Source of the DNA: a bacterium
GTDB taxonomy: Bacteria > Verrucomicrobiota > Verrucomicrobiae > Opitutales > Opitutaceae
Length of the DNA: 43,792 nt
Assembly: GCA_021780625.1 (NCBI GenBank)
Contig: JAJXYI010000569.1
Location: 1-43,792, forward strand
Direction of reading: 5' to 3'
Every line of letters starts with the position of its first letter. The first letter of the stretch is position 1. Of the stretch, positions 1 to 17,779 are shown piece after piece. The translations under genes and the position numbers were made by a program. The notes beneath the pieces were generated by a model, which saw only the letters and a list, made by a program, of their open reading frames with translations, was not told where the DNA came from and searched no databases.

Positions 1-42
1 ACCCGCCGGGTGAAGCTCTTCTCCTCGCAGAACTGCGTCCAT
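1..42 (-). CDS. Possible 5' end of a minus-strand gene, cut by the window edge
   Basis: An ATG on the minus strand opens a frame that stays open for 14 codons (MDAVLRGEELHPAG) to the window edge. A purine-rich GAGGAAAG sits about seven bases upstream of it, a plausible ribosome binding site. Too little is visible to name a product. The alternative is that this is non-coding flank of the integrated element. Confidence 0.25.
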   Translation of the reverse strand, partial: MDAVLRGEELHPAG

Positions 43-139
43 GGGGCTTTCCTCAAGCAAGTTCCGTGTCAGTCACTGTGTCCAAATGCTGTTTTTAGGG
101 TCAATGGCGGCTCCCCAGTTTATGGTGCAGAACAAGCGT

Positions 140-168
140 TTTCAGCCCCGACGTGGCAGTCTCCCGCC
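140..168 (+). repeat. Direct repeat copy 1
   Basis: This 29-base stretch beginning TTTCAGCCCCGACGTGGCAG is repeated with a few mismatches at 205-233, a 65-base period. The two copies are separated by a near-palindrome. It may be a dispersed intergenic repeat of this genome; that needs the rest of the genome to judge. Confidence 0.6.
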
Positions 169-204
169 TTCCGCCTACGCCAAGGCTACGGCGTGACGAG
201 TCGC

Positions 205-233
205 TTTCAGCCTCGACGTGGCAGTCTTCGCCC
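205..233 (+). repeat. Direct repeat copy 2
   Basis: Second copy of the repeat at 140-168. The central CGACGTGGCAGTCT is identical and the mismatches are near the ends. Confidence 0.6.
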
Positions 234-323
234 TTGCGATCTGATTCCGCTTTCCCAAGTCCTTACTCGGTCCGCGCGCTGGCCGGGCTTCGTATCGCCT
301 CCGGCGATGACTATGCCCGGCAG

Positions 324-345
324 GCTACTGGACTCGAACCAGTGA
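324..345 (-). repeat. attL: Left attachment repeat (tRNA-Val T-arm copy)
   Basis: These 22 bases are identical to 11297-11318 and in the same orientation. On the minus strand they read as the T-stem and T-loop plus the first acceptor bases (ACTGG TTCGAGT CCAGT AGC). Identity stops at the acceptor: the tRNA continues GTCC, this copy continues CTGC. The outer flank therefore does not restore a functional tRNA 3' end. Confidence 0.8.
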
Positions 346-379
346 AACGCTTGCGCAGTGCGACCCATCGCTTTTCTCC

Positions 380-407
380 TATGAAATGCATTTCAAAAAG
401 TTTCATA
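380..407. promoter_or_regulatory. Nested palindrome upstream of the integrase
   Basis: A perfect 14-bp palindrome, TGAAATGCATTTCA, lies at 382-395, nested in a wider inverted pair (TATGAAA 380-386, TTTCATA 401-407). It sits in an AT-rich patch between the attachment repeat and the integrase start at 455, where an excisionase or repressor operator, or an integrase arm site, would be expected. Function is inferred from symmetry and place only. Confidence 0.45.
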
Positions 408-454
408 AATCATCCTTGAAGGTTGAGATTATTGTTGAGACATTGGCGGACGTC

Positions 455-1618
455 ATGGCTTCACTACGGAAATTTCCCGGTAGTCCATTCTGGTTCGCTT
501 GCTTCACCCTTCCCGACGGTCGGCGGACTCAGAAATCCACCAAGCAGAGTGACCGACGCCGAGCCCTTGCGGTAGCCATGGCCTTTGAAAAAGCCGCGAA
601 GCTCGGAGCCGAGAAACGCCTAGGGGAGGCGCAGGCCCGACGCGTACTCAGCGAGATCTACGAGACGGTCAACAATGCTCCGCTTCCATCGAAGACGGCC
701 CGCGTCTTCTTGTACGAATGGTCAGCAAGCCGAAAGGTCGACACAAGCGCCAGGACTGCGGCAGCCTATGCACAAGTCGCGCGCGATTTCACCGCTAGCC
801 TCGGGCCACGGGCCGACATCGACGTTTCGATGCTGACGAAGGCCGACGTGGCGAAATACCGCGACGAGGTTCGGAACCGTACCTCTGTCGCAACCTCGAA
901 CAAATCGCTCAAATATCTCAGAGTTGCCCTAGGCGCAGCGTACAAAGACGGCCTCGCCCAGGATAATCCGGCGACGAAGTTGGACGTGCTGACTCGCGTC
1001 GCTGAAGGACGGACAGAGCGGCGGGCGTTCACCCTAGAGGAGCTCAAGGTCCTATACCGAGTCGCGACAGGCGAATGGCGCGGCCTCATATTGTTCGGCC
1101 TCTATGCCGCAGGCCCACGTCTCAAGGATCTCGCGATGTTGACCTGGGCCAACGTCGACTTGGAGGTTCACGAATTGCGCTTTGTCACAAGGAAAACCGG
1201 TCGGCGCATGCGGATCCCGCTGAAAGACGCGCTTGAACGGTATCTCGCCGAGATTCCAGCGGCGGATGATCCAAACGCCCCACTTTTCCCACAGGCACAC
1301 GCAATCGCCTGCAGGGGTGGTAGTGACTCGACCCTTTCGATACAATTTCATCGTCTGCTTGAAGCCGCAGGGCTGGCGGAGCCGCGGAGCAAGGCCTCAA
1401 CCGGGCGGGGACGTAGCCTGCGCCGCCAGGTGTCCGAGCTCTCGTTCCATTCACTCCGCCACACCGCAACCAGTTTTCTTAAGAGCGCAGGTGTTGCTCA
1501 TATCGTCGCTCAAGATCTGGTCGGGCACGATTCTGAAGCAGTCAGCCGGCGGTATTCGCACGTCGATGACGACGCAAAGAGGAGGGCAATTGATGCCTTA
1601 CCGGACATTTTGGGGTAG
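455..1618 (+). CDS. int: Tyrosine recombinase / phage integrase
   Basis: It should catalyse integration and excision of the element at the tRNA-Val T-arm. The 387-residue product has the tyrosine recombinase layout: an N-terminal DNA-binding region, a SAM-like core-binding domain (about 80-180) and a catalytic domain (about 190-380). The catalytic set is visible: Arg222 in AAGPRLKDLAMLTW, Lys247 in the beta hairpin (TRKTGRR), His332 and Arg335 in HSLRHT, His358 in LVGHDS, and nucleophile Tyr367 in RRYSHVD. An in-frame ATG lies 69 bases upstream at 386, but it is inside the palindromic region and encodes an atypical leader, so I prefer MASLRKFPGSPFW at 455. No strong ribosome binding site precedes either start. 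The gene reads inward from the left attachment repeat. It appears complete. Confidence 0.92.
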   Translation: MASLRKFPGSPFWFACFTLPDGRRTQKSTKQSDRRRALAVAMAFEKAAKLGAEKRLGEAQARRVLSEIYETVNNAPLPSKTARVFLYEWSASRKVDTSARTAAAYAQVARDFTASLGPRADIDVSMLTKADVAKYRDEVRNRTSVATSNKSLKYLRVALGAAYKDGLAQDNPATKLDVLTRVAEGRTERRAFTLEELKVLYRVATGEWRGLILFGLYAAGPRLKDLAMLTWANVDLEVHELRFVTRKTGRRMRIPLKDALERYLAEIPAADDPNAPLFPQAHAIACRGGSDSTLSIQFHRLLEAAGLAEPRSKASTGRGRSLRRQVSELSFHSLRHTATSFLKSAGVAHIVAQDLVGHDSEAVSRRYSHVDDDAKRRAIDALPDILG

Positions 1619-1704
1619 CTCATTGAATTTGCTTGCGCAACCGGCCAGCGATTCCTTCACAGACCTTATCGCACCGCATGGAGAAACTCTGGCGGGGCGG
1701 TTCA

Positions 1705-1734
1705 CCCGAACACGAACACGAATTCGAACGCGAG
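1705..1734 (+). repeat. YGAANN hexamer repeat cluster 1
   Basis: Four consecutive hexamers beginning CGAA (CGAACA CGAACA CGAATT CGAACG) run at exact 6-base period from 1707. Similar clusters occur at 2200-2223 and 2645-2680, so clusters lie before, between and after the first two helix-turn-helix genes. They could be operators or iterons; simple-sequence drift is the alternative. Confidence 0.55.
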
Positions 1735-1812
1735 ACGTAGGTTCCTTTCGCCAGTCGGCGACGAAAGGGGCGTGAGTCCATTGCCGAGCGACAATCCTTT
1801 GTTCGTATTCAA

Positions 1813-2097
1813 ATGACCGATTCACCCATTTCCGCGGCGCCCCAAGACGCCATTTCCCGCATTCAATCAGGTGTTCCTGAGTTCGCCCGCCTTCCTCGGC
1901 GGGGCGCTTGTCCTTGGACTGGCCTCAGCCGCTCGTCGCTGCTCAATCTGGAGAAGGAGGGCTGTATCCACCTGCGGCGACTTCGCCGACCTGGGCGAAT
2001 TCGCGGGGTCGTTTTGATCCCGGTAGCCGAAGTAACAAGCTGGCTGCGGGCCAACACGACGACCAAACGCCCCCCCGAAATGCGATCGGCGGAGTGA
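1813..2097 (+). CDS. Small helix-turn-helix protein (excisionase/AlpA-like)
   Basis: The 94-residue product is predicted to bind DNA. A winged helix-turn-helix of the AlpA/MerR-like excisionase kind covers about residues 25-80: PWTGLSRSSLLNLEKEG would be the helix-turn-helix, followed by a basic LRRLRRPGRIRG wing and a VVLIPVAEV strand-helix. It is clearly paralogous to the protein at 6070-6291 (GLSRSS, R-G-x-x-LIP). It sits just downstream of the integrase and between repeat clusters, which fits a directionality factor or repressor of the element. Such proteins are common in integrative elements, but which operator it uses cannot be read from sequence. Confidence 0.65.
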   Translation: MTDSPISAAPQDAISRIQSGVPEFARLPRRGACPWTGLSRSSLLNLEKEGCIHLRRLRRPGRIRGVVLIPVAEVTSWLRANTTTKRPPEMRSAE

Positions 2098-2135
2098 ACC
2101 TTTTCACCGGATATGGCCCCGGCTTGGCATGGCCT

Positions 2136-2160
2136 GCATGGCATGGCATGGCATGGCATG
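2136..2160 (+). repeat. (GCATG)5 tandem repeat
   Basis: Five perfect tandem copies of GCATG, preceded by two degenerate copies (GGCAT, GGCCT). The tract lies in the gap between two helix-turn-helix genes, inside a frame that runs openly into the second one. Repeat-number change would shift that frame by two bases per unit. Confidence 0.85.
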
Positions 2161-2199
2161 GGTCGGGGCGCTGCGCCGATAAAAAGGCGCACCAATTTC

Positions 2200-2223
2200 C
2201 GAACCTGAATCCGAACCCGAAAA
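2200..2223 (+). repeat. YGAANN hexamer repeat cluster 2
   Basis: Four hexamers with YGAA at 6-base period (CGAACC TGAATC CGAACC CGAAAA). It lies between the two helix-turn-helix genes, about 90 bases upstream of the second. Same pattern as clusters 1 and 3. Confidence 0.5.
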
Positions 2224-2315
2224 GAAACGACCTCGATTGCATTCATGGGCGGCAGGTGCCCGGTGCGCATCTGCCGCTCTACGACAAAATGCACCGCCAC
2301 AACCTACAGATTCGG

Positions 2316-2642
2316 ATGAATTACCAAACTCAAAAGTCTGCTCCCAACGCTCCGGTCGCCGGTCTCCCGCCAGCCGAGAGGTTCCTGAAGACTGCTCAGG
2401 AAGTCGCCTTTGCTGTCGGGGTGAGCCGGTGGACGGTGCAGGCAGTCAAACGAGCCTCCAAAGGCAAGCCAGACTGCCCATGGACGGGTCGGTTCACCAC
2501 CGCGAGGCGTTTCCAACGGTGGATATTTGATCACCCGGATTTTGTCGCTTCCAACGTGATGCGCCCGCAACACACGGATGTCCGACACGGTCCCCGCTTG
2601 GATCGCCGCCGTGACGACCTCCGAATTTTGTCCAACGAGTAA
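2316..2642 (+). CDS. Probable helix-turn-helix DNA-binding protein
   Basis: This 108-residue frame carries a helix-turn-helix-like segment near residues 25-45 (FLKTAQEVAFAVGVSRWTV), followed by a basic stretch and PWTGRFTTARRFQRWIFDHP. The layout is that of a small phage regulator or excisionase, but it is not closely similar to the other two helix-turn-helix proteins of the element. The frame is open much further upstream, back to 1908, but that part overlaps the previous gene and crosses the GCATG tract. I therefore start at ATG 2316; 2289 is an in-frame alternative. No clear ribosome binding site is visible. It ends just before repeat cluster 3. Confidence 0.5.
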   Translation: MNYQTQKSAPNAPVAGLPPAERFLKTAQEVAFAVGVSRWTVQAVKRASKGKPDCPWTGRFTTARRFQRWIFDHPDFVASNVMRPQHTDVRHGPRLDRRRDDLRILSNE

Positions 2643-2644
2643 CC

Positions 2645-2680
2645 CGAAACGAACACGAATCTGAACCTGAAACGAATCTG
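2645..2680 (+). repeat. YGAANN hexamer repeat cluster 3
   Basis: Six YGAA units start at 2645, 2650, 2656, 2662, 2668 and 2673, so spacing is 5-6 bases. It lies directly after the stop codon of the second helix-turn-helix gene and before a terminator-like hairpin. Confidence 0.5.
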
Positions 2681-2687
2681 ACTTGAA

Positions 2688-2724
2688 AGCCCGCCTTCGT
2701 CCTGAGGGCGGGTTTTCTGTTTCT
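2688..2724 (+). terminator. Rho-independent terminator before the tape measure gene
   Basis: CCCGCC (2690-2695) pairs with GGCGGG (2707-2712) across an 11-base loop, followed by TTTTCTGTTTCTT. It would separate the early regulatory genes from the tape-measure gene. Confidence 0.75.
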
Positions 2725-2794
2725 TGATCGATCAGGATTCGATTTTTCTGGGCGTTTTTTGACAGCCAGACCGACGCTCGCCTGATCGGTAGGC

Positions 2795-5700
2795 ATGGAC
2801 GGTAGCACCCTGGTTCAGATCCTTTTCTCATCCGCTGGCGCCGAAGCCGTCACGGGCTCCATGGCGAAAATCCAGGAGGGCTCCGTCGATCTCGGCAAAG
2901 AGCTGCTCAGGCTTGCCGGAGCGACGCTCACGATCGACGGCGTTTTCGAGGGATTCAAGGGAGTGCTGGAGTTCGGCTCCCAACTGACGATCATGTCGGC
3001 GCGTGTCGGCGAGTCGGTATCGAACCTCGTTGTGCTCGGCCGGGCCTTCGAGAAGGTCGGCATGGGCGGCGAGGAGGTCGGGGCGATGGCCAATCGCCTT
3101 CAGCAGGCGATGTCAGGCGTCAATGCGATGGGGGCCAACACCAAGTCGGCCTTCGCAGCCCTCGGGACGTCAATCGACCAACTCCAGGGGAAGACCTTCA
3201 CCGAACAGCTCGAGAAACTGGGCGAAGGTTTCCGGCGGATCAATGACCCTGCCCAGCGCGCGGCGATCGCGATGGATCTCTTTGGCAGGTCTGGCGGCCA
3301 GATGCTGGCGATGCTTCAGCAGCGCGGTCTGCTAGGAGAAGCGGCGGACGATGTGGGGCGCCTGGGCGAGCGGATGCAGCAGGACGCTGGCGCGTTCAAC
3401 GAGGCCCAGGACAACCTGAAGCTGATCAACGACCGAATGAAGGAGATGTTCGTCGTCGCGACGGAGCAGCTTCTGCCGGTACTTAATTCGGTCGCCGACA
3501 TCATTCGAGGGATGAACCTCGCTCCGATCGGTGCGGCAATGCCAGGCATCGCGCTCGGATTCGGCTCGATCATGGCTAATTCTGTCGCTTCACGGCTGAA
3601 CACTTCGGTGATGGCCTGGGCTGAGAGTCAGTCGGCCGGCGCCACGTTCGCCGGCAGCATCATTCAGCCGATCACCGGCGGACTCAGCTCATTCTTTGGC
3701 GCTGCATTGCCGGCGCTGCTCGCTGTCGCGGTCGGCGGCGCGCTCGAGAACGCAATCGCTCAGGCGATGGTGGAGGGTATTGATACGGCGGATCAGATCC
3801 GAGGCGCTCACTCCAAAGAAACGCACGAAGCGGTCGCCGGCCTGTATCAGGCGAAAAACCAGACCGAATTCGACGCCGCGCGGAAGAGTGCCGAGGAAGC
3901 CCTGGCGAAGGCGAAGGAGGAGCTGGGGGGACTTCAGGCGTTCGTCGACAAGTACGCGAAGGTGACGGGCCGGGACAAGGATCCCAACAAGGATTTTGTC
4001 ACTAAACTGGCGTTCAGTAGCGACCAAGAGGCCCGCTTCACTGCCCTAAAGAAGGAGATCGCTGACATCCAGCACGCGCTCGACCAGAAGCCGAAATATC
4101 AGCTCTTCAGCATGAATCAGCTGAAGGCGGCGACAGAGCAGTGGCGAAACGCAACCGTCGACATCACGAAGCTTCGTGAGGAGCACGAGAAGTTCGTCTT
4201 CGAGCAGGAATCGGCGAAGCAGCAGCTCCAGGGGCTGACGGTGAAGCGCACGCAGATGGTCGAGGAGCACGCGCTCCAGCCGAAGCTTCTCGACGACGAC
4301 GCGGAGCATAAGCGTGAAGCCCAGTACCAGGTCGACCTCGACAACCTGGAGAAGCAGATCCTCGAGACGAAGAGGAAGGTCGCCGAGGAAGACCAAAAGG
4401 CGGTCGAAGCCCAGAAGAAGTTGGCGGAGCAGGCCGCCCGTCGACTGGGCATCGAGGATCAGATCAAATCGGCGGCGGCGCACGCGAATGGCAATCAGCA
4501 GCTCGAAGAGTCGATCAAGGAGCAGGTCGAGCGCTCACGTGTGATGAAGGAGGCCCTCGACGCCGGCATGAGCGAGAACCTGGCGAAGTCGGCAGCCGAT
4601 TCGATGGTCGCGGCGCTGCGCCGGGAGTTCACGAACGGTCAGACGGAGAAGGCGCTTCAGGACGCATCGTCGGCTCTGCGGGATCAGCTTTCGGCCAAGC
4701 AGACGGATCTTTCCGAGACCGAGGCCGACACGTCGAAGACTTCGACGGAGAAGTGGCTGGCAAAGCGTAGGATCCTCACTGAGGAGATCGCGCTCGAGAG
4801 CGAGTTCATCAAGCGCCTGGAACAGGAACAGGCGCTGGCGCAGAAGAGCGGCAACGATCAGCTCTACCACACGATTGGTCAGCGGATCGACAGCGCCAGC
4901 CAGCAGCGGTCGGGCACGCAGAAGGAGCTCCTGCAGACCGGCCCCGATCCGTCGTCGTTCGTCGCGCAGTGGACGAAGGGACTGACGCAGCTTCGGCAGG
5001 AGTGGACGGTGACCGGCGCCAGCATGGCTGAGTCGATGACGACCTTCATGGGTTCGATGGAGGGCGGCCTTCAGCACGGCCTGTTCGACGCCATGGAAGG
5101 CAAGGTCCGAAACCTTGGCCAGTTCTTCGGCACCGTCTGGCGTTCGGTCGGCGAGAGCGCGGCGCAGATGATGTCGCAGATGGGGGCGAAGTGGCTGATG
5201 GAGCACACGGTCATGGCAGCCGCATCGAAGCTCTTCCATGCCGGCGAGACGGCGACGCAGGCGGCGGCGACAGGCACGCAGGTGGCGATCCACGCCGGAG
5301 GAGAAGTCGCGAAGACCGGCGCAACGGCCGCAGGCACGGCAACCAGGAGCGGATTCAGCCTGGCGGAAACGATTTTCCACAACGCCCAAGTGGCGATCAG
5401 GACGGCGGCTCACATCGCGGGCGAGATTGGGAAAACAATGGTGTCGATGGCGCAAGGCGCCATCCGCATCGCCGTGATCATCGCCGAGTCGATGGCGTCA
5501 GTCATCCAGGCGGCGGTCGGTGCACTGTCGGCCATGGCATCGATCCCCTACGTCGGCCCGTTCCTGGCCGTCGGTGCGATGGCGGCGATCCTCGCGGCCG
5601 GCGGCGCACTGGTGAAAGGCGTCAGCAAGGGGTTCGCCGATGGTGGATACACAGGCGATGGCGGGAGATACGAGTCGGCCGGAACGGTTCACAAGGGTGA

Positions 5701-5959
5701 GTTCGTGTTTGCCGCTCCGGCGGTCCAGCGCATCGGACGTGCGACGCTCGAGGCGCAGCACACGGCGGCAATGAGCGGCTCGTCCACGACAGGCTCGGCT
5801 GCGGCCGTCGGACCAGCCGCCGGCCGGGGCGGCAAGGACTCGCCGGATGTGCATCTGGCGTTCTTCAACACTCAGCAGTCGGTCGAGCAGTATCTGCGGT
5901 CCCGGCAGGGTCGGCGCGTTATGGTCGACTTCATGAATCAGAACAAGAGCGAGGTTTGA
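2795..5959 (+). CDS. Phage tail tape measure protein
   Basis: Tape measure proteins set tail length and line the tail lumen; they help DNA pass into the new host. The 1054-residue product shows the family layout. An N-terminal helical region has a conserved block near residues 155-175 (AIAMDLFGRSGGQMLAML). A hydrophobic stretch lies at about 275-325. A long charged coiled coil covers about 335-760 (many E/K/Q). An alanine- and isoleucine-rich hydrophobic region ends near 945, and the C-terminal motif FADGGYTGDGGRYESAG is followed by VHKGEFVFAAPAV, typical of tape measure ends. Established rule: about 0.15 nm of tail per residue, which would suggest a siphovirus-like tail near 150 nm. It stands alone: no tail tube, tail chaperone, distal tail or baseplate gene is beside it, which is unusual. 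The frame is intact, so it is either recently orphaned or still under selection. Confidence 0.9.
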   Translation: MDGSTLVQILFSSAGAEAVTGSMAKIQEGSVDLGKELLRLAGATLTIDGVFEGFKGVLEFGSQLTIMSARVGESVSNLVVLGRAFEKVGMGGEEVGAMANRLQQAMSGVNAMGANTKSAFAALGTSIDQLQGKTFTEQLEKLGEGFRRINDPAQRAAIAMDLFGRSGGQMLAMLQQRGLLGEAADDVGRLGERMQQDAGAFNEAQDNLKLINDRMKEMFVVATEQLLPVLNSVADIIRGMNLAPIGAAMPGIALGFGSIMANSVASRLNTSVMAWAESQSAGATFAGSIIQPITGGLSSFFGAALPALLAVAVGGALENAIAQAMVEGIDTADQIRGAHSKETHEAVAGLYQAKNQTEFDAARKSAEEALAKAKEELGGLQAFVDKYAKVTGRDKDPNKDFVTKLAFSSDQEARFTALKKEIADIQHALDQKPKYQLFSMNQLKAATEQWRNATVDITKLREEHEKFVFEQESAKQQLQGLTVKRTQMVEEHALQPKLLDDDAEHKREAQYQVDLDNLEKQILETKRKVAEEDQKAVEAQKKLAEQAARRLGIEDQIKSAAAHANGNQQLEESIKEQVERSRVMKEALDAGMSENLAKSAADSMVAALRREFTNGQTEKALQDASSALRDQLSAKQTDLSETEADTSKTSTEKWLAKRRILTEEIALESEFIKRLEQEQALAQKSGNDQLYHTIGQRIDSASQQRSGTQKELLQTGPDPSSFVAQWTKGLTQLRQEWTVTGASMAESMTTFMGSMEGGLQHGLFDAMEGKVRNLGQFFGTVWRSVGESAAQMMSQMGAKWLMEHTVMAAASKLFHAGETATQAAATGTQVAIHAGGEVAKTGATAAGTATRSGFSLAETIFHNAQVAIRTAAHIAGEIGKTMVSMAQGAIRIAVIIAESMASVIQAAVGALSAMASIPYVGPFLAVGAMAAILAAGGALVKGVSKGFADGGYTGDGGRYESAGTVHKGEFVFAAPAVQRIGRATLEAQHTAAMSGSSTTGSAAAVGPAAGRGGKDSPDVHLAFFNTQQSVEQYLRSRQGRRVMVDFMNQNKSEV

Positions 5960-6069
5960 GCCCTTCGAGGAACGAAGGGTGATACGTCCCGATGCTGCCT
6001 GATTCGGGCTGAGTCGTTTTTTTCACGCAGAATTTGACGAGGTGCCCGCGCATCCGCGGACAGGATGCC

Positions 6070-6291
6070 ATGGACACTTCTACGCCCTTGTCATTCCCGG
6101 CGGCTATTCGTCTGCCGGCGCACGGTCGCCGCGACCCGTACTTCGGCCTGTCGCGGAGCTCGTGGTATCGCTTACACGCGCGCGGGTTGATCTCATTCCG
6201 GCGCACCAGCCCAACCGGATCTCAGCGGGGAGGATGTACGCTGATCCCCTTCGCTGATGCACGCCGAGCACTGCTCGGAGACGCCCCATAA
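6070..6291 (+). CDS. Small helix-turn-helix protein, paralogue of the gene at 1813
   Basis: The 73-residue product is a second AlpA/excisionase-like DNA-binding protein. Its core (YFGLSRSSWYRLHARGLISF, then GGCTLIPFADARR) matches the protein at 1813-2097 motif by motif. That points to duplication within the element or capture of related regulators. ATG 6070 is preceded by AGGA four bases upstream; a TTG 36 bases earlier in frame is a weaker alternative. It lies between the tape measure and rep genes and is followed by a GC-rich hairpin, so it may control the replication gene. Confidence 0.65.
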   Translation: MDTSTPLSFPAAIRLPAHGRRDPYFGLSRSSWYRLHARGLISFRRTSPTGSQRGGCTLIPFADARRALLGDAP

Positions 6292-6300
6292 AAACGAAGC

Positions 6301-6330
6301 GCCCGCCGGGTGGTAGCAACCTCGGCGGGC
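6301..6330 (+). promoter_or_regulatory. GC-rich hairpin upstream of rep
   Basis: GCCCGCCG (6301-6308) pairs with CGGCGGGC (6323-6330), an 8-bp stem with a 14-base loop. There is no T-run behind it, so it may be an attenuator or RNA-stability element rather than a simple terminator. It begins 10 bases after a stop codon and ends 15 bases before the rep start. Confidence 0.5.
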
Positions 6331-6344
6331 TAGGAACTGAGAAG

Positions 6345-7727
6345 ATGTTGGGGAATCACACGATCACCGGCCGCGGCGTCGAGTTTTTTCGACGAGATTC
6401 GGCGCGTCCGCCCGCCGTGCTCTTGTCTGAGTTTCAGGGAGCTAAGTCGGAAATTGCCGATACCTCCAACTTCGTCTCCTACGAACGGCACTACGGCCGC
6501 CAGCGTCTCGCCTTTGCGACGGTGACCTGGTCCGGCCCGGTCACTCTCGAGCGCGTCAAGCAATTGCTCGGCGCTCGACCAGCGCGGGGAATCTTGCGCA
6601 GCGCTGCCGTCGACTATCTCGCTGCCATCCATTGCGGTACCGCTGGCGGCAAGTGGCACCTGCACATACTGGCGCTTCTTCGCGACGACTTCAGCGATCG
6701 GCACCAAGCGTGGCTTGCCGATTTCCGGACAGTGCTTGGCGCCGGCTGGCGCTGTTCGATCGAACCGGTCCGGGAGTCTGCCAGGTCAGCAGTTGCCTAT
6801 CTGCATCGCGGCGTCGACTCGTCCCGGTCTGCGACAGCCAACGGCGCCCGCCTGCTCATCCGGCCGTCGGGGAACGAGGCGCAGGCCGGCCGCGTGGCCT
6901 CGTCGCGGTTCTCCTGGGTTTGCCGGAATGGCGCCAGCGCTAGGCATCGACGGTTTTTGACCGCGTGCGAGCGCAGCGGGATCTTCACGCAATTCGATAT
7001 CGAGCGGCTGCTCGGGAGGCGGTGGCGGGCAGTCGTGCGCGACCTTTGGTCTCGGGCGCCGAGCGACGACGCGGCCCGCCGACGACTGTCCGAACGGCTG
7101 GCGGATGCGCGGGCGTGGTGGGCGGCCGTCGAAGCGCCAGTCTCGCGCCCGCCGCAAGCCGCCAAGCAGCCCGCCCGAGCATCCACAGACGAAATCTTCG
7201 TCTGGCTGGCCGGAATGCTACGGCTGCCTAATCGAAGGCCGTCAGACGCGGCGCTGCGCCGGCTTGCCGGCAAGTTGCCACGCCAACGCATCCTGCGCCC
7301 GACCGCACATCGTGCCCGCGCCGGACCAGCGCCACCCGGCAGGCAACTGCACACCGTCTTTCCCAGAATATCCAATATCAACACATTCAGCAATGAACTA
7401 CAGATCCAAGAAACTGAACATAAGAGACTTGAACATCGCGACCGACACCGTCGTCCCGATCATCCGCGCTGGCCATCCGACCTACCGATCGCTGGGCGAG
7501 CTCGAGGTGGGCGACTTGGTATTTCGCCCCGACGAGACGCCGACGGAGGTCGTCGCGCTCGGACCTGTCGGGAGCGTCGGCTTGCGCTTGCACTTCACCG
7601 ACGGCGTCTCGCTCGACACGTCCGAGGAAACGCTCCTGCCCGTCCGCGACCGGGCGCGCTCCGAAGACATTACGATCGCGGCGGGACCGCTGTCCTGGCG
7701 ACGCACGATTCCCGGCTGGCGCATTAG
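6345..7727 (+). CDS. Probable HUH-type rolling-circle replication initiator (Rep)
   Basis: The N-terminal half has the three motifs of a Rep endonuclease in the right order. Motif I is a hydrophobic strand (LAFATVTWSGP, about 55-65). Motif II is His105-Leu-His107 (KWHLHILAL), the metal-binding HUH. Motif III carries Tyr152 in AVAYLHRGV, the expected nicking tyrosine. Such proteins nick one strand at the origin and stay covalently attached by the tyrosine. The remainder is arginine-rich and matches nothing I recognise. The 3' end is uncertain: the frame stays open to 7727 but overlaps the next gene by 335 bases, and the overlap part looks like an out-of-frame translation. A frameshift or sequencing error near 7300-7400 is possible. 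The motif reading is direct; the family assignment has no alignment behind it. Confidence 0.55.
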   Translation: MLGNHTITGRGVEFFRRDSARPPAVLLSEFQGAKSEIADTSNFVSYERHYGRQRLAFATVTWSGPVTLERVKQLLGARPARGILRSAAVDYLAAIHCGTAGGKWHLHILALLRDDFSDRHQAWLADFRTVLGAGWRCSIEPVRESARSAVAYLHRGVDSSRSATANGARLLIRPSGNEAQAGRVASSRFSWVCRNGASARHRRFLTACERSGIFTQFDIERLLGRRWRAVVRDLWSRAPSDDAARRRLSERLADARAWWAAVEAPVSRPPQAAKQPARASTDEIFVWLAGMLRLPNRRPSDAALRRLAGKLPRQRILRPTAHRARAGPAPPGRQLHTVFPRISNINTFSNELQIQETEHKRLEHRDRHRRPDHPRWPSDLPIAGRARGGRLGISPRRDADGGRRARTCRERRLALALHRRRLARHVRGNAPARPRPGALRRHYDRGGTAVLATHDSRLAH

Positions 7728-7902
7728 GTATGTTACGCGCAGGCGGTTCGTCCATCAAGGCCAGCGTAGGTTCGCGCGAGCCGCTGGGATCGTGGGGTTC
7801 CAAGACATCGAGGACCGTCCAGGACGAGGGGTCGTCGTTGCTGGCGGTGGCCTGTTCGTCGTCACCGACGCGTGGATTCCAGTCTTCGCAGCGGAAATCT
7901 GA
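7393..7902 (+). CDS. Stand-alone Hint/intein-like domain, catalytic residues missing
   Basis: The 169-residue product reads like a mini-intein of the phage-terminase kind. A block-A-like start (ATDTVVPI, then SLGELEVGDLVF) is followed by a block-B-like LHFTDGVSLDTSEETLLPV and a C-terminal strand pair (GVVVAGGGLFVVTDAWIPV). The residues needed for splicing are absent. Asn14 stands where Cys1 is expected. The block B histidine (usual DAEHLW) is replaced by Thr80 (EETLLPV). The end is FAAEI instead of His-Asn plus Cys/Ser. No flanking extein is visible, and the gene lies just upstream of the terminase genes, where inteins are often found inside TerL. It may be a domesticated intein or an unrelated beta-rich protein. 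ATG 7393 has no good ribosome binding site and overlaps the rep frame. Confidence 0.55.
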   Translation: MNYRSKKLNIRDLNIATDTVVPIIRAGHPTYRSLGELEVGDLVFRPDETPTEVVALGPVGSVGLRLHFTDGVSLDTSEETLLPVRDRARSEDITIAAGPLSWRRTIPGWRIRYVTRRRFVHQGQRRFARAAGIVGFQDIEDRPGRGVVVAGGGLFVVTDAWIPVFAAEI

Positions 7903-7946
7903 AGCCATTCCTTGACCAGGCGCCCAACGAAAAATCCATCAAATCC

Positions 7947-7975
7947 AGGCGGGTGGGGATGAACTTCACCCGCCT
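7947..7975 (+). promoter_or_regulatory. GC-rich hairpin upstream of terS
   Basis: AGGCGGGTG (7947-7955) pairs perfectly with CACCCGCCT (7967-7975), loop 11 bases, then TTCGAAGGATACC leading into the next start codon. It may end transcription of the Hint gene or act as an attenuator for the terminase genes. It shares the GGCGGG core with hairpins at 2690 and 6301. Confidence 0.55.
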
Positions 7976-7989
7976 TTCGAAGGATACCG

Positions 7990-8619
7990 ATGAAAGACGA
8001 CCAACTGGCAAACACGCCCGAATCACCTGTGCCCACGCGAGGCGGTGGGCGGAAACGCTCACTCTCCCAGCGCCAGGGGGATCTCGAGTTCATCGCCGAG
8101 AAGATTCTCCGCGGTTGGACGCATCAGAAGATTTCGGAGGAACTGGCCAAGGTCAGGCCGTACCGGATCAGTCGATCGATGGTCTCGCTCGATGTCGGCG
8201 AACTCCGGCGGGCTTGGCGTGCGGATGCCGCCGACTCATTCTCGGATCGGCAGTCTGTCGCGCTGAAGAAGCTCGCCCTGGTGGAAACTGAAGCCTGGGA
8301 GGCGTGGGATCGCTCGAAGGAGGACGGCAGTCCTGGCAACGTCGCTTTTCTGCGTGAGGTGCTGACTGCGATCGAACGTTGCTCGAAGATGCTCGGCCTC
8401 GATGCGCCGGTCCGCGCGGAGTTGTCAGGCCCAGATGGCAAGCCGCTGGAAATCGAGATCTCCGCCCCGCCTCCCGAACTGAATGACGAGCGGGTTCACG
8501 AACTCCTGACGCGGCACGCCATCCGGCTGGGAATCATCCCCGCCGCAAATACCAGTGAAGAAGCGCCGGGAGGAGCAGATGATGACGCAAGCGCAATCGC
8601 CGACGCTTCTGCCGGATGA
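7990..8619 (+). CDS. Terminase small subunit-like protein
   Basis: Small terminase recognises the packaging site and regulates the large subunit. The 209-residue product has an N-terminal basic helix-turn-helix region (about 25-75: RQGDLEFIAEKILRGWTHQK, then RISRSMVSLDVGELRRAW), a central helical oligomerisation segment and the typical REVLTAIERCSKMLGLDAP signature (near 120-140) found in many terminase small subunits. The tail is acidic and alanine-rich. GAAGGA lies just upstream of ATG 7990. The 3' end overlaps the start of the large subunit gene in another frame, so the two are probably translationally coupled. Position and the GLDAP signature carry the call; similarity is otherwise low, as usual for the family. 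Confidence 0.75.
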   Translation: MKDDQLANTPESPVPTRGGGRKRSLSQRQGDLEFIAEKILRGWTHQKISEELAKVRPYRISRSMVSLDVGELRRAWRADAADSFSDRQSVALKKLALVETEAWEAWDRSKEDGSPGNVAFLREVLTAIERCSKMLGLDAPVRAELSGPDGKPLEIEISAPPPELNDERVHELLTRHAIRLGIIPAANTSEEAPGGADDDASAIADASAG

Positions 8620-10012
8620 GGAGTACGAGCGGCTACTCTGTGCGTGCTGCAAGAATTCGCTGCTGACCTTCACCGAGGCGTTTGTTCGCAGCTACCGGGC
8701 GGCGCGCGTGCATGAGTTTCTTGCCGGCAAGCTCGAGGACTGCTTCGCCCGCAAGGTCCGACGACTGTGCATCTCGATGCCGCCGCGGAGTGGCAAATCT
8801 CAGCTTTGCTCGGTCGGCTTTCCAGCCTGGGCGCTCACGAAGTCCCCAGGCCTGCATGTCATTCAAGCGTCCTACGCGGCATCGCTGTCGGAAGGATTCA
8901 GCTTGGGGATCCGCCGGATCCTGCAGAGCGACTCCTACCGCAGGCTCTTCCCTCCGATACTCTCGCCGGAGATCAATCGGCAGCGAGCGTGGGCGACCTT
9001 GGGCGGCGGATCCTTCTTCGCGACTGGCACCGGCGGCGGCCTGGTCGGACGCGGCGCCGACATCCTGATCTGTGACGACCTCACGCGGGATCGCGCTGAA
9101 GCGAACAGTCAAACGCACCGCGACGACGTTTGGTCCTGGTTCACATCGGCGGCGCTCACTCGCTTGAGCCCAAACGGAGTCGCGATCGTCATTTCGGCGC
9201 GCTGGCACGAGGACGACCTGATCGGGCGTCTCACGTCGCCAGAGCGGAGGAAGGAATTCGAAGCTGCAGGTCTCCAGGATGAGTTGTTCGAGGTGGTGAA
9301 CCTCGAGGCCCTTTGCGAGCACCCCGAAACCGATCCACTCGGCCGCCAATACGGCGAGGCCCTTTGGCCGGAACGTTGGCCGGTTTCACAGTTGGAAGCC
9401 CGCAAGCTTCAGATCGGCGCGACCGAGTTCGCTGCGCAGTACCAAGGCCGGCCGTCTCCAGCCGGTGGTGACATCTTTCGCACGGGCAAGATCCGAATCA
9501 TCGACGCCGACGATGTGCCGGAGGACCTGCGCACGATGCGTGGATGGGACCTCGCACTCTCGACGAAGACGCAGGGCGACTACTCCTGCGGCGCCCGCGG
9601 TGGCCTGGATAAAGAGGGCAATTTCTGGCTCGTGCACATGGACCGCGGGAAACGTGCCTGGCCGGATCAGAAGCGGCGGATCATCGATTTTGCCAACGCT
9701 GAGGCGTCAGATGGAAGGATCGCAGTCGAGGCCGTGGCGGGCTTCAAGGTCGCGGTGGCGGAGCTCGAGACGGCACTACGCGGGCGCATGTCAGTACGAT
9801 CTATCTCGGTCACTTCTGACAAGATGACGCGTGCTCTGCCATGGAGCGCGAAGGTCGACGGCGGCATGTTCTACATCGTGCGCGGCCCGTGGAACGCCGA
9901 CTTCCTCGCAGAGCTTGGGTCATTCCCGAACGGCACACATGACGACCAAGTCGACGCTGTGTCCGTTCTCTGGGATGCGGTGCACAGGCAGAAGAAGCTC
10001 CTCATCGCGTGA
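8582..10012 (+). CDS. terL: Terminase large subunit
   Basis: TerL is the ATPase and nuclease that translocates and cuts phage DNA at the portal. The 476-residue product has Walker A MPPRSGKS (66-73), a Walker B-type ILICDD (161-166) and coupling region, the fold switch to a C-terminal RNase H-like nuclease with RGWDLAL (Asp323), and a late acidic motif GTHDDQVDAVS near 456, which supplies nuclease aspartates. Length is usual for the family and no key residue seems lost, so the protein looks active. I chose ATG 8582, six bases behind GGGAGGAG; ATG 8579 and GTG 8555 are in-frame alternatives. It overlaps terS. No portal gene follows, although in tailed phages one normally does. No intein interrupts this TerL. 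Confidence 0.93.
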   Translation: MTQAQSPTLLPDEEYERLLCACCKNSLLTFTEAFVRSYRAARVHEFLAGKLEDCFARKVRRLCISMPPRSGKSQLCSVGFPAWALTKSPGLHVIQASYAASLSEGFSLGIRRILQSDSYRRLFPPILSPEINRQRAWATLGGGSFFATGTGGGLVGRGADILICDDLTRDRAEANSQTHRDDVWSWFTSAALTRLSPNGVAIVISARWHEDDLIGRLTSPERRKEFEAAGLQDELFEVVNLEALCEHPETDPLGRQYGEALWPERWPVSQLEARKLQIGATEFAAQYQGRPSPAGGDIFRTGKIRIIDADDVPEDLRTMRGWDLALSTKTQGDYSCGARGGLDKEGNFWLVHMDRGKRAWPDQKRRIIDFANAEASDGRIAVEAVAGFKVAVAELETALRGRMSVRSISVTSDKMTRALPWSAKVDGGMFYIVRGPWNADFLAELGSFPNGTHDDQVDAVSVLWDAVHRQKKLLIA

Positions 10013-10161
10013 CTGGTACATAATCGCTTTCCACGAGTCTCTGACCAATCGGCATTGACGCTTCATCTTCACTTGGTTGGGCTTCCGATCACCAGCCGAC
10101 CGCGAAATACACCAGAGCAACCGCACGTTCTTCATGCTTGGTCCCCTCCAGCCTGCACAAA

Positions 10162-10626
10162 ATGAAACTCCAGCTCGCAATTCCTGCCTTGGTCATCTCC
10201 GCACTCGGATTCTCCGGATGCATGTCGATCGTGAAGGTCGCGCCCTACCCATCGCCCACCGCTTGGGATAATCCTGCCGTCAAAAAGCTTGGCCCCGTAA
10301 GCGCCGACTCCGGCACCTGGCCTCTCTCGCTGCATTCAGTTCCAGACTACACGATTCAATCGAACTTGAGGACAAACGCGTCGAACAAATACAAGGTACC
10401 GGTAGACCAAGTCGTCCTGAGCGAGGCAACCGTGCAGGTAGGCGCTGAGATGGACGGCACGATTCGGGACTGGAAAGCCACGGCCGAGGCCGGGCAACTG
10501 GCAAATGGTGGAACTGAGCAAACGCCAGCCCAGCAGCTGACCGAGCTGAAGAAGCTGCTCGACGCCGGCCTGATCTCGAAGGCCGACTACGAAGCCAAGA
10601 AGGCAACAATTTTGCAGAAGATGTGA
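10162..10626 (+). CDS. Lipoprotein with C-terminal SHOCT domain
   Basis: The 154-residue product starts with a lipoprotein signal (MKLQLAIPALVISALGFSGC) with Cys20 as the likely lipidated residue. The C-terminal segment (about 125-154: QQLTELKKLLDAGLISKADY, then EAKKATILQKM) is a classic SHOCT domain, a short helical oligomerisation or interaction module. The middle is unrecognised. A lipoprotein at the accessory end of a prophage-type element suggests lysogenic conversion or superinfection exclusion, as known for several phage lipoproteins; this is inference. The start is ATG 10162 because upstream in-frame residues would spoil the signal peptide. No stem-loop separates it from the next gene. 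Confidence 0.75.
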   Translation: MKLQLAIPALVISALGFSGCMSIVKVAPYPSPTAWDNPAVKKLGPVSADSGTWPLSLHSVPDYTIQSNLRTNASNKYKVPVDQVVLSEATVQVGAEMDGTIRDWKATAEAGQLANGGTEQTPAQQLTELKKLLDAGLISKADYEAKKATILQKM

Positions 10627-10639
10627 CGCCCATCCAGCT

Positions 10640-10852
10640 ATGAACCTGATCAAGTGCCCGGCTTGCCAGAAGGACATTTCGCCCAACGCCGTCGCCTGTC
10701 CTCATTGCGGCGAGCCGGTCAAGACCACCGTCGAGAAGGCTGCCGGAGGCGCCATCAACATGAGCGATCCGGTACACGTCGTCGGAATCGCCCTAGTGGT
10801 GATTATGGTGATCGGCATTGCGCTGTACGTCATCGTCGGCCTGGCCGGCTGA
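10640..10852 (+). CDS. Zinc-ribbon membrane protein
   Basis: A 70-residue protein with an N-terminal zinc ribbon (CPACQK at 6-11 and CPHCGE at 20-25, two C-x2-C pairs) and one C-terminal transmembrane helix (about 45-67, VHVVGIALVVIMVIGIALYV). The start ATG follows the lipoprotein stop by 13 bases, so the two are probably cotranscribed and may act together at the envelope. Zinc-ribbon plus one membrane helix is a common small-protein design with no fixed function; none is assigned here. Confidence 0.7.
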   Translation: MNLIKCPACQKDISPNAVACPHCGEPVKTTVEKAAGGAINMSDPVHVVGIALVVIMVIGIALYVIVGLAG

Positions 10853-10911
10853 TCGCCATGAGCTCAGAACCGAAGAGGCTACTTCGACTCTCCACCAGTT
10901 CGGGCTAATCG

Positions 10912-11034
10912 TTGGAAGTCCTGATCGACTACAGCGAGGAGGACGGCTGCTACCTCGCCCGCGTGCCGGCGCTCAAATTCTGCATATCCCTCGGCGCGAC
11001 CTACGAGGAAGGGGCACGCCGTAACGTGTGGTGA
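10912..11034 (+). pseudogene. HicB antitoxin remnant
   Basis: The frame from TTG 10912 reads LEVLIDYSEEDGCYLARVPA then LKFCISLGATYEEGARR before a stop. It matches the N-terminal beta-strand domain of HicB antitoxins, including the D-G-x-Y-x-A-x-V-P core and the G-x-T-x-E-E-A stretch. Only about 40 residues remain: the second half and DNA-binding tail are missing, and no hicA is next to it. It has neither ATG nor a convincing ribosome binding site. I read it as the leftover of a toxin-antitoxin pair at the element's right end. Confidence 0.55.
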
Positions 11035-11246
11035 AGGCTGAAATCGCGAGTTTCTCGAATGACTTAACGCGTTGCCTGATCGTTTCCTGCGACGGAATGA
11101 AGTTCACGCCGGAGAAGAAGCAAAAAGCTGCATTTGGTTCAAGTGTTTGGGAGTTTAGCGCCCGCTACGCGTGCAACAACCGTGGCAACGCTGGGCATTC
11201 ATGGATCGGGCAGAACGTCCTTGAACTTGTTGAGAGTGAAGGTTGA
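11028..11246 (+). CDS. Small open frame of unknown function
   Basis: A 72-codon frame starting GTG at the end of the HicB remnant. The product is not recognised and has no clear membrane segment or motif. Its codon use is less GC-biased than neighbouring genes and no ribosome binding site is seen. It may be decayed sequence between the HicB remnant and the right attachment repeat. Confidence 0.2.
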   Translation: MVKAEIASFSNDLTRCLIVSCDGMKFTPEKKQKAAFGSSVWEFSARYACNNRGNAGHSWIGQNVLELVESEG

Positions 11247-11288
11247 GAGCTGACTTCAAATCTTACGCAAGTCATTACCCCTCAACCC

Positions 11289-11365
11289 TGGTGGACGCTA
11301 CTGGACTCGAACCAGTGACCCCTAGTGTGTGATACTAATGCTCTAACCAACTGAGCTAAGCGTCC
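11289..11365 (-). tRNA. tRNA-Val(CAC)
   Basis: The minus strand folds into a full cloverleaf. The acceptor stem is GGACGCT/AGCGTCC, the D-arm GCTC AGTTGGTTA GAGC, the anticodon stem TTAGT/ACTAG with loop ATCACAC (anticodon CAC, Val GTG codons), the T-arm ACTGG TTCGAGT CCAGT, then A and an encoded CCA. All stem pairs are Watson-Crick except one G-U. The T-arm is the integration site of the adjoining element. Confidence 0.95.
11297..11318 (-). repeat. attR: Right attachment repeat inside tRNA-Val
   Basis: Identical to 324-345. It covers the T-arm and the first three 3' acceptor bases of the tRNA. The tRNA 5' part (11319-11365) lies outside the element; the terminal acceptor bases and CCA (11289-11296) lie on the element side, so the intact tRNA depends on element-supplied 3' sequence. 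Confidence 0.8.
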
Positions 11366-11452
11366 ATTCAGGAGGGCGACACGTTTGAACGACCCGCCCG
11401 CACGAATCAACACCGTTTTTGGACGGATTCCGCCGCCCGCCAGCCAACCGGG

Positions 11453-12121
11453 CTATTTCCTCGTGCACACGGGCTTCCGTCGATTCGGGTAAAGCGCGCG
11501 GCACAGCTCGCACACCGTCCCATCGCAACCGCGCGCCGTGCAGTGCTCCCGTCCGTAGTGAATGATCCTGAGGTGAAGCTGGTTCCAAGTCCCCTCCGGA
11601 AATAGGGTCTTCAAGTCCGCCTCCGTCTGCTCCACGCTCCGCCCATCCGTCAGCCCCCAGCGCTGCGCGAGGCGGTGGATGTGGGTGTCGACCGGAAACG
11701 CCGGCACCCCGAAGGCCTGCGACATCACCACCGACGCCGTCTTGTGCCCCACCCCCGGCAGGGCCTCCAGCGCCTCAAAACTCGCCGGCACCTTGCCGCC
11801 GTGCTTCTCGACGAGTATCCGCGAAAGCTCCGCGATCGCGGTCGCCTTGCGCGGCGCAAGCCCGCAGGGACGCACGATGCGGTCGATGTCCGAGACGGAC
11901 ACCTTCGCCATCGCCTCGGGCGTGCGCGCCAGCGCGAACAGCGCCGGGGTGACCCGGTTCACCCGGACGTCCGTGCACTGCGCCGACAGCACCACGGCAA
12001 CGAGCAACGTGTACGCGTCGACGTGGTCCAGTGGTATCGGAGTTTCCGGATACAGTTCGGCCAGGCGCGCGGCGACAAGCGCCGCGCGGGCTGCGCGTCC
12101 GGAGAGAAGGGGCCTGCTCAT
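11453..12121 (-). CDS. nth: Endonuclease III, base-excision DNA glycosylase
   Basis: It removes oxidised pyrimidines and cuts the abasic site. The 222-residue product has the HhH-GPD fold: helix-hairpin-helix LPGVGHKTASVV with catalytic Lys127, and catalytic Asp145 in FPVDTHIHRLAQRWG. The C-terminal cysteine cluster is unusual: Cys194, 199, 204, 207 and 219, spaced x4, x4, x2 and x11, instead of the canonical C-x6-C-x2-C-x5-C. The iron-sulfur cluster may be ligated differently or absent. I start at ATG 12121; a GTG three codons upstream is possible. It is the last gene of a minus-strand run and lies next to tRNA-Val. Confidence 0.92.
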   Translation of the reverse strand: MSRPLLSGRAARAALVAARLAELYPETPIPLDHVDAYTLLVAVVLSAQCTDVRVNRVTPALFALARTPEAMAKVSVSDIDRIVRPCGLAPRKATAIAELSRILVEKHGGKVPASFEALEALPGVGHKTASVVMSQAFGVPAFPVDTHIHRLAQRWGLTDGRSVEQTEADLKTLFPEGTWNQLHLRIIHYGREHCTARGCDGTVCELCRALYPNRRKPVCTRK

Positions 12122-12167
12122 GCCCCGCACAGTGCCGCAGCCACGGCGGGATGCAAACGCGGCCCGC

Positions 12168-12536
12168 TCACAGCGCCCTCCACCAACGCCCCGCCAGGTA
12201 GAGCAGCATCCCCACCCGGATCGCCCCCTCGAAGGTCAGCACCACCAGGACCCATTTGAGCGCCAGCCTCCTGCGCAGGATCGAGCCGACAAGGCTGACC
12301 GCCAGCATGCACAGCGCCGCCGCCACCGCGCGTCGTTCGAAAAGCAGCAGCAGCATCCACAACCGCTCGACGAGTATCCCCAGGCTCCACACCGCCGCGC
12401 GACCCGACCCCATCGGCAGCAGCCGTGGATCGGTCCCCGCCGCGATCTGCGCCACACCCAGGTAACGCTCCGCCACGACGAGTTGCCATACCTCGAAGAC
12501 GATCCAAATCAGCGAGACAGCCAGGAGCGTTTCCAT
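12168..12536 (-). CDS. Small integral membrane protein, unknown function
   Basis: A 122-residue hydrophobic protein with about four predicted membrane helices (METLLAVSLIWIVFEVWQLV at the start, later WSLGILVERLWMLLLLF, AALCMLAVSLVGSIL and a last helix ending LYLAGRWW). No family is recognised. ATG 12536 is chosen because it starts immediately at the first membrane helix. It lies between hslR and nth on the same strand with short gaps (72 and 46 bases), so cotranscription is likely. Confidence 0.6.
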   Translation of the reverse strand: METLLAVSLIWIVFEVWQLVVAERYLGVAQIAAGTDPRLLPMGSGRAAVWSLGILVERLWMLLLLFERRAVAAALCMLAVSLVGSILRRRLALKWVLVVLTFEGAIRVGMLLYLAGRWWRAL

Positions 12537-12608
12537 CGTGCGCGTCGCTCTCCTCCTCCCACAAAGGCCCGCCAACCGCCATCCCAAACCCCGCCGGCCC
12601 GCGGCCGT

Positions 12609-13001
12609 TCAAAGCCCGAGCAGCCGGTCTATCGCGCGACGGTCGCGCTTGGTCGGACGTCCGCTCCCTTTTTCCCTCTCCAGCAAATGCTGCACGGGCT
12701 GCGAGCGCGCCTTTTCAAACTCGGAGGGCAGCGTCCGATCCTCGCAATAACCGGGCACCTGCTTCGCCGAAACACGCCCGGGCGGGCACCCGACGACCAC
12801 CACACTGCGCTGGACCAAACCCAACTTCACCCCGACCCGATCACCCGGACGAAGGTCGCGGGAAGCCTTCGCGGCGAGATCGTTGACGGTGACGCTTCCG
12901 GCGCGGCAGCTCGAAGCGGCCTGCGCACGGGTCTTAAAAAGGCGCACCGCCCATAGCCACTTGTCGAGCCGGGCGGTGCTGATTTCCGATGAGGTGGACA
13001 C
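12609..13001 (-). CDS. hslR: S4-domain RNA-binding protein, Hsp15-like
   Basis: Hsp15 binds 50S subunits that carry blocked nascent chains and helps recycle them. The 130-residue product has the S4 domain at residues 9-70 (RLDKWLWAVRLFKTRAQAA, then V-x-V-N). The basic C-terminal tail ends in GSGRPTKRDRRAIDRLLGL, a feature of the Hsp15 branch. Length agrees with the family (about 130). The gene follows the DUF3016 gene by 24 bases. Confidence 0.85.
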   Translation of the reverse strand: MSTSSEISTARLDKWLWAVRLFKTRAQAASSCRAGSVTVNDLAAKASRDLRPGDRVGVKLGLVQRSVVVVGCPPGRVSAKQVPGYCEDRTLPSEFEKARSQPVQHLLEREKGSGRPTKRDRRAIDRLLGL

Positions 13002-13025
13002 GCGGCGTTTGAAACGCCTCGGATC

Positions 13026-13583: not shown

Positions 13584-13740
13584 GGCGGCAGCGACAAGGA
13601 ATTGCATCTATTGTTCCGGGAGGGACCGGAGGGGAAGTCGGGGGGGTGACAGAGCCTCGGACGAGGGTGATCGGACGCTCGCCAAGGTGGGCGGCAACCG
13701 TATGGTTACCCAACGAATATTCGGATTTTCCGCAAGCTTC

Positions 13741-17772: not shown

Positions 17773-17779
17773 GCTTACC

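Follow-up and report, generated by a model that had tools for sequence, protein, structure and literature searches.

A candidate phage satellite integrated in an Opitutaceae genome carries its own terminase and a lone tape measure gene

The stretch of DNA analyzed here (hereafter the window) comprises 43,792 nucleotides of an Opitutaceae bacterium (Verrucomicrobiota; GCA_021780625.1, contig JAJXYI010000569.1). Positions 324–11318 of the window hold an element flanked by identical 22-bp repeats (GCTACTGGACTCGAACCAGTGA; copies at 324–345 and 11297–11318, 100% identical), measuring 10,973 bp start to start. All of its named genes are on the plus strand, in the order integrase, two small helix-turn-helix (HTH)-like open reading frames (ORFs), a terminator-like stem, a tail tape measure protein (TMP), a third small ORF, a probable HUH Rep, a Hint-like protein, the small and large terminase subunits (TerS and TerL), a SHOCT protein, and a zinc ribbon. 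It shares with satellites in general an integrase and att sites of its own, and with phage-inducible chromosomal islands (PICIs) a size of ~10–15 kb and an integrase gene at one end (386). A preliminary description had proposed an ~11-kb element with intact integrase, TerS, TerL, and a 1054-residue TMP, and Pfam and PHROG profiles, homology, motif strings, and stop statistics all bear this out.

The integrase gene (386–1618, plus strand) encodes a tyrosine integrase of 410 amino acids (Pfam Phage_integrase PF00589, 7e-14; phrog_1, 2e-44). The TMP gene (2795–5959, plus strand; 1054 amino acids) matches a PHROG tape measure profile (phrog_2854, 1.2e-19) and no Pfam family; 31.6 stop codons are expected by composition in this frame, which has a probability of ~1e-14 of being open. 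The window TMP is recorded on 2 contigs, and a protein search returned one record that is 79% identical (P0002) and four that are 36–39% identical (P0003–P0006); the full searches with TMP and TerL scored only candidates sharing most words, so these lists may be incomplete. The alignment with P0002 includes 5 gap columns, and of its eight parts six are 80–87% and two 65–69% identical. Scanning viral contigs with the TMP yields 14 loci, including four near full length at 36–40% identity (L022, L023, L024, and L032), one near full length at 25% (L025), and 9 partial ones. A TMP match is also found in a Verrucomicrobiaceae metagenome-assembled genome (L036).

In a tree of 21 TMP rows, the window protein falls within a clade of seven rows (support 100/100) where it pairs with P0002 (100/100), P0003 pairs with L024 (99/99), and the phages L022, L023, and L032 form a third subgroup (88/81), with the branching order among the three subgroups left unsettled by the tree. 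Lengths within the clade are 1054 amino acids for the window compared with 1038, 1086, and 1091 for the phages, while that of L024 is ~10% shorter (947). Since the window TMP equals its phage counterparts in the clade in length, no change in tail length is predicted; neither tail shortening nor the earlier suggestion that this protein could impose tail length is supported. Among 189 relative genomes, 25 have a TMP match, and 20 regions were taken from 13 of these. Twelve of these regions also show other matches to reference phage proteins and eight match the TMP only; ORF lists of seven of the latter include some that look like Mu-type prophages. No convincing second element with a lone TMP emerged among the 20 regions from 13 genomes.

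TerS (209 amino acids; 7990–8619, plus strand) matches at 35–36% the gene preceding TerL in three other loci (L003, L015, and L024); it has no Pfam family at the cut-off, and its PHROG match is labelled "Rnase E". A scan with TerS again recovers L003, L024, and L037, together with L248/L249, the first of which has a portal-like gene and further phage-like ORFs. TerL (477 amino acids; 8579, or 8555, to 10012, plus strand) is assigned by phrog_38 (2e-97) and Pfam Terminase_6N and 6C, and the motif strings PPRSGKS, WDLA, VEAVAG, and HDDQ are all present. The window TerL is recorded on 2 contigs; a homologue is 86% identical (P0016), and a related TerL (P0043, 50%) is named Opitutaceae. A further TerL search, with alignment A4, was too generic, and its best 80 matches were kept. 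The TerL proteins of the window and L024 both match phrog_38 best, while that of L022 matches phrog_2, and the window TerL shows no BLASTP similarity to those of L022 and L032 (best E 0.24). A TerL 38% identical to the window's also lies near a tRNA-Glu in a relative genome (L016; G148:C2, ~681–18667), where its neighbors, named by eye, are restriction, resolvase, deaminase, and integrase-like genes, with no TerS or capsid recognized.

Compared with distant relatives over well-aligned blocks, dN/dS is 0.27 (L003), 0.24 (L024), and 0.19 (L015) for TerL, and 0.31 (L024) and 0.31 (L022) for TMP, values obtained with dS near saturation and biased low by the choice of blocks. Judged from these alignments, they are a mark of old purifying selection on both genes and not of present-day function.

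Besides a small ORF, two further genes lie between TMP and TerS. The probable HUH Rep (6345 to ~7385, plus strand) has an HxH motif at residues 105–107 and a tyrosine at position 152, and its frame, which stays open to 7727 and overlaps the Hint-like gene, is the best scoring by codon use. It could be placed in no family of Pfam, PHROG, or NCBIfam, nor was a homologue found, and no primase or PICI Rep family was detected in the element using Pfam and PHROG. Its structure model is of low confidence and shows a ferredoxin-like core, with HxH on a strand (103–112) in a block with predicted confidence (pLDDT) of 55–70 and Tyr 152 on a modelled helix (146–155) where pLDDT is <50. Searched against PDB, this model ranks HUH nucleases among unrelated ferredoxin folds, with ribosomal protein S6 first. 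Scans gave weak matches in 2 of 387 genomes, both with internal stop codons, and none in viral contigs. Given the HxH motif, the ferredoxin-like core of the low-confidence model, and the codon use, the label of probable HUH Rep used in the preliminary description is a fair one.

The Hint-like protein (7387–7902, plus strand; 171 amino acids) is free-standing, apparently lacks the splicing residues by eye, and has no Pfam family. Its gene is supported by codon use, and when BLASTP was run once against the insert in the TerL of P0055, which was chosen by eye, 23 of 78 residues were identical (E 4e-10). The best PDB match is an intein (E 0.71), the structure model is uninformative (pLDDT 29), and no such protein was found in viral contigs. 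Inteins or intein-like inserts are carried by the related phage TerL proteins P0048 and P0055. The Hint-like protein, located directly before TerS, could be an intein that no longer splices or a protein that assists packaging.

The element lacks the genes for a complete virion, as satellites do, and the gene set of a prophage (portal, capsid, connectors, and tail) is not found in it. Specifically, PHROG profiles run on 10 element ORFs do not reveal a gene for a portal, capsid, protease, or connector, nor any further one for the tail. When 16 reference proteins (capsids, proteases, portals, connector, tube, chaperone, distal tail, and satellite regulators) are compared with the whole window by tblastn, the best E is 0.024 (a portal, over 60 amino acids). 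The head and tail genes reported missing in the earlier account are thus not found by either approach, and the lysis genes, sought by the PHROG scan only, are not found by that scan. A capsid remnant between TMP and TerS was looked for by tblastn and rejected. A tail chaperone of the L022 type was not found in the window; the chaperone of the PLE satellites discussed below was not among the queries.

The right copy of the flanking repeat (11297–11318) is located in the T arm of a tRNA-Val(CAC) gene (11289–11365, minus strand; ARAGORN and Rfam, with the tRNA being the only match of the Rfam scan), which serves as the integration site and whose 3′ end is supplied by the element side. This tRNA and an adjoining gene (nth-like by eye) are found together in 2 of 3 same-genus genomes searched (G001 and G002), with short partial matches only in the third (G003). 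The left copy (324–345) is identified by its identity to the right one, and its left side is fused to host sequence: window positions 268–330 are part of a dispersed repeat of the host assembly (G000) that directly abuts the left att core. This dispersed repeat is overlapped by 12 of the 15 matches of window positions 1–2800 in that assembly, and in 10 of 11 host loci compared it continues beyond the point where the window switches into the att core, while the eleventh (L224) ends at a contig end. The odd left junction could possibly reflect the loss of a short segment once the element had integrated, or recombination at a similar-looking sequence. The host assembly also has the element's rightmost 556 bp, located at a contig edge (C69), while neither TMP nor TerL is found in it, and a comparison of the element DNA with phage records gave no match.

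A related viral contig of 11.2 kb (L024) encodes, in order, an HTH protein, TMP, a 117-amino-acid ORF, capsid, prohead protease, TerS, TerL, and a Cro/C1-type regulator. Its capsid is HK97-type (Phage_capsid, 9.4e-6) and its protease belongs to Peptidase_S78 (2.8e-16). Based on tblastn of 44 reference proteins, including two portals, no portal, connector, tube, chaperone, distal tail, or integrase is found in L024 at E 0.05. The capsid–TerS–TerL arrangement also occurs in L003 and L037, the latter being the same sequence as contig C67 of a relative genome (G061). Among 189 relative genomes, the L024-type capsid is found only in G061, in two copies. The second of these (L124; G061:C51) lies on a contig with no terminase match, and elsewhere a C-terminal TerL fragment sits beside host-like genes (L126; G261:C61); both are likely remnants of related elements.

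Phage contigs that share this kind of TMP, or the L024 kind of capsid, are organized differently, the latter with protease, capsid, connector, and tail in that order. L022 and L032, which are partial phage contigs, encode terminase, portal, protease–capsid, head–tail adaptor, TMP, and distal tail, with a chaperone in L022 also, and L023 represents a shorter fragment of this type. The gene order in L022 and L032 is terminase, portal, protease/capsid, connector, chaperone, TMP, and distal tail; in L072 and L078 it is protease, capsid, connector, tube, chaperone, and their own TMP. L022 and L024 share a metagenome number (3300046480). A 6.6-kb phage fragment (L068) has an L024-type protease (57%) and capsid (56%) joined to connectors in the usual phage order, and its tail chaperone is 39% like that of L022. 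Our best guess for a helper is a phage of the L068 kind.

Based on these sequence comparisons, we propose, with a probability of about 0.6, that the element is an integrated phage satellite that is packaged by the motor it encodes and contributes a TMP to the tail of a helper. Support for this reading includes att repeats at a tRNA, full-length integrase, TMP, and TerL, the persistence of TMP and TerL in other metagenomes (79% and 86%), and the presence in L024 of TMP and TerS–TerL with a capsid–protease cassette between them. The element also appears to be of mixed ancestry, since its TMP groups with phages L022, L023, and L032, and the TerL proteins of L022 and L032 are unlike the window's. 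Several findings weigh against the proposal. There is one complete example only, and in L024, whose ends may be truncated, no integrase is seen. At differing cut-offs, window-type TerL genes are rare (6 of 189, 4 of 252, and 3 of 387 genomes), and the window element has no capsid while all five L024-type contigs have one. No helper was seen either, with the L022-type portal absent from the host assembly and found in 8 of 95 relatives (6 strongly). The Rep was missed by gene callers, has a poor model, and has a frame that runs into the next gene; at the left junction the dispersed repeat adjoins the core directly and the expected remnant of the tRNA 3′ end is absent, and several small ORFs toward the right end (10912–11246) look broken.

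The overlapping Rep frame, the odd left junction, and the broken-looking small ORFs, together with the phage descent of all large genes, would also suit a decaying prophage—i.e. a full temperate phage from which most genes for head, tail, lysis, and control have disappeared, with the remainder left by chance. We regard such decay as rather unlikely, as none of the large genes is truncated, their motif strings are intact, and the pairing of TMP with TerS–TerL recurs in L024. In addition, TMP precedes TerS–TerL here, unlike the order in L022/L032 or L072/L078, such that deletion alone is insufficient; with the mixed ancestry, this rules out a simple deletion from a full phage among the phage contigs found, none of which is a complete relative that would make the element such a product. 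The preference of the preliminary description for a satellite over decay has therefore gained support from L024, gene order, and the old purifying selection on TMP and TerL. Among the relative genomes and viral contigs searched, TMP with TerS–TerL is repeated in L024, and no second complete example emerged.

The frame of TMP, cassette, TerS, and TerL common to the window and L024, with the cassette differing, could also mean that the element is a crippled derivative of an L024-like, capsid-bearing satellite whose capsid–protease cassette was lost or replaced and whose mobility may or may not persist. This seems improbable to us, given that neither a capsid nor a protease remnant is left between TMP and TerS, codon use backs Rep and the Hint-like protein as real genes, and the two TMPs are only 36% identical, which indicates an old split. 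We give equally little credence to an anti-phage island that is not transferred and in which TMP and terminase act as decoys, poisoning tail assembly and packaging of incoming phages. Interference with tail assembly is a known defense of satellites and prophages (PMC11364771), and the lone TerL of the same family in G148 lies in a defense-like island (genes named by eye); however, the integrase and probable Rep point to mobility, and the best PADLOC match among the 10 smaller ORFs, a scan that covered neither TMP nor TerS and TerL, has an E of 0.059.

Under the proposed satellite reading, a helper phage would infect or be induced, and Int would excise the element, perhaps with a small HTH-like protein. 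Rep would then nick the circle and start replication, TerS–TerL would pick out satellite DNA and load it into heads whose portal and capsid come from the helper, and the satellite TMP would replace that of the helper while the helper tail tube is built, giving a hybrid particle. The sister element L024 would also bring its own capsid and protease. The satellite might gain tails reserved for itself, with the helper TMP shut out, an escape from tail-targeting defense, or a different specificity of DNA entry, and such gains are likelier than an altered tail length. The cassette between TMP and TerS holds an HTH-like ORF, Rep, and a Hint-like protein in the window compared with an ORF, capsid, and protease in L024. 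It is an even bet whether the two represent a satellite lineage, probably of Verrucomicrobiota, that is built on its own TMP and terminase and in which the cassette separating these can be exchanged. Both ends of the particles of such a lineage would be hybrid, as the satellite motor would fill a head that is either borrowed or its own, and the satellite TMP would sit inside a borrowed tail.

Some of these features have counterparts in known systems. PICIs carry a pri/rep replication module, and capsid-forming PICIs (cf-PICIs) have their own portal. The window differs from PICIs by its probable HUH Rep, a TerL besides TerS, and a TMP, and from cf-PICIs by having no capsid, protease, or portal; no portal was found in L024. 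The element resembles PICIs in its size (~10–15 kb), in the position of int at the left end, and in carrying small regulators along with genes for replication and packaging (PMC11364771). L024 resembles cf-PICIs in having its own capsid, protease, and terminase, with no tail gene beyond TMP (PMC11389934 and PMC12987554), and a figure legend indicates that some cf-PICIs carry putative tmp genes (PMC12987554).

Another likeness is found in the phage-inducible chromosomal island-like elements (PLEs) of Vibrio cholerae, which carry tmp and tac genes. According to PMC12987554, PLE11 builds chimeric tails, deletion of tmp in PLEs cuts transduction by 96% to 99.9%, and PLEs are termed the first satellite family known to build such tails, with tmp genes elsewhere only predicted. 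Like the satellite proposed here, PLE11, PLE1, and PLE4 are small and integrated and bring a TMP that differs from the one in the helper, to be built into a mostly borrowed tail (PMC12987554). By contrast, PLEs have a tail chaperone gene with tmp, and PLE11 also a baseplate hub gene, none of which was found in the window; the TMP of PLE11 differs by 95 amino acids from the helper's and its tails are ~10 nm shorter (PMC12987554), while the window TMP is of phage length. The window also has its own TerS–TerL, which differs from PLEs, and its host is different; PLEs have a Vibrio host and ICP1 as helper, and the relatives of the window's genes are Verrucomicrobiota.

Other small elements are more distant. 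Phage-inducible chromosomal minimalist islands (PICMIs) are, like the element, small integrated islands with int and their own replication gene, and PMC10803314 gives their core as int together with alpA and a primase next to fis. PICMIs are not known to have packaging genes, and of their core the window shows int only. The Pseudomonas satellite–helper pair AH14b/AH14a involves a small prophage-like element thought to use the capsids of another phage, as does ours, but AH14b is reported to lack structural protein genes, and the tape measure is the helper's (PMC4936722).

What is new is therefore the gene combination and the probable host phylum, not satellite TMPs as such. The phylum is indicated by the Opitutaceae TerL (P0043) and by the Verrucomicrobiaceae TMP match (L036). 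The earlier view that the combination is undescribed holds for the gene set, for which no description was found, and not for a satellite with its own TMP, which PLEs now exemplify and, through putative tmp genes, some cf-PICIs. In the accessible open-licence literature on satellites with tape measures or in Verrucomicrobia/Opitutaceae we found no description of this gene set, and among titles and abstract starts no satellite paper for the host phylum. If the proposal is true, it would suggest that tail-assembly takeover by satellites has arisen more than once, given that a TMP stands here beside a complete terminase of its own in a probable phylum for which no satellite paper was found. The use of a TMP would also be separable from tail length, since the window TMP shows no shortening relative to its phage counterparts in the clade.

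The remaining named genes of the element are small ORFs on the plus strand. An ORF of 94 amino acids (1813–2097), a possible HTH protein or excisionase by eye, has weak PHROG matches only (E 0.065 and 0.073) and a frame not favored by codon use. A second (2316–2642; 108 amino acids) is HTH-like by eye with no Pfam family, and a third (6034–6291; 85 amino acids), a possible HTH protein, matches Pfam HTH_17 at E 0.23 only; both are the best of six frames by codon use, with scores below zero. None of these small HTH-like ORFs has a confident family, by Pfam or PHROG, that would make it an AlpA-type regulator. The terminator-like stem-loop before the TMP gene (2685–2717, plus strand; 15 pairs) is supported by stem length alone, as the region has 6 terminator-like sites compared with 8.6 expected in shuffles. 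Downstream of TerL, a SHOCT-domain protein (10138–10626; Pfam SHOCT, 6.5e-08), lipoprotein-like by eye, precedes a zinc-ribbon protein of 70 amino acids (10640–10852; Pfam Zn_Ribbon_1, 1e-05). In the broken-looking segment at 10912–11246, a run of 40 codons resembles by eye the start of a HicB gene but has no Pfam family, and an ORF of 72 codons has no PADLOC match.

A period-6 repeat of the YGAANC type occurs in three copies on the plus strand, downstream of int (1707–1736), of the 1813–2097 ORF (2200–2223), and of the 2316–2642 ORF (2650–2673). The repeat-bearing part of the element is not present in the host assembly, which has no family of this repeat (1 match at one mismatch vs 2 for a reversed control). 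The repeats are possible regulatory or recognition sites. In a scan of loci of at least 3 kb, apart from L131–L209, similar runs are seen in L024 (23–52), L124 (from 3489), and L068 (from 938), with one in L019.

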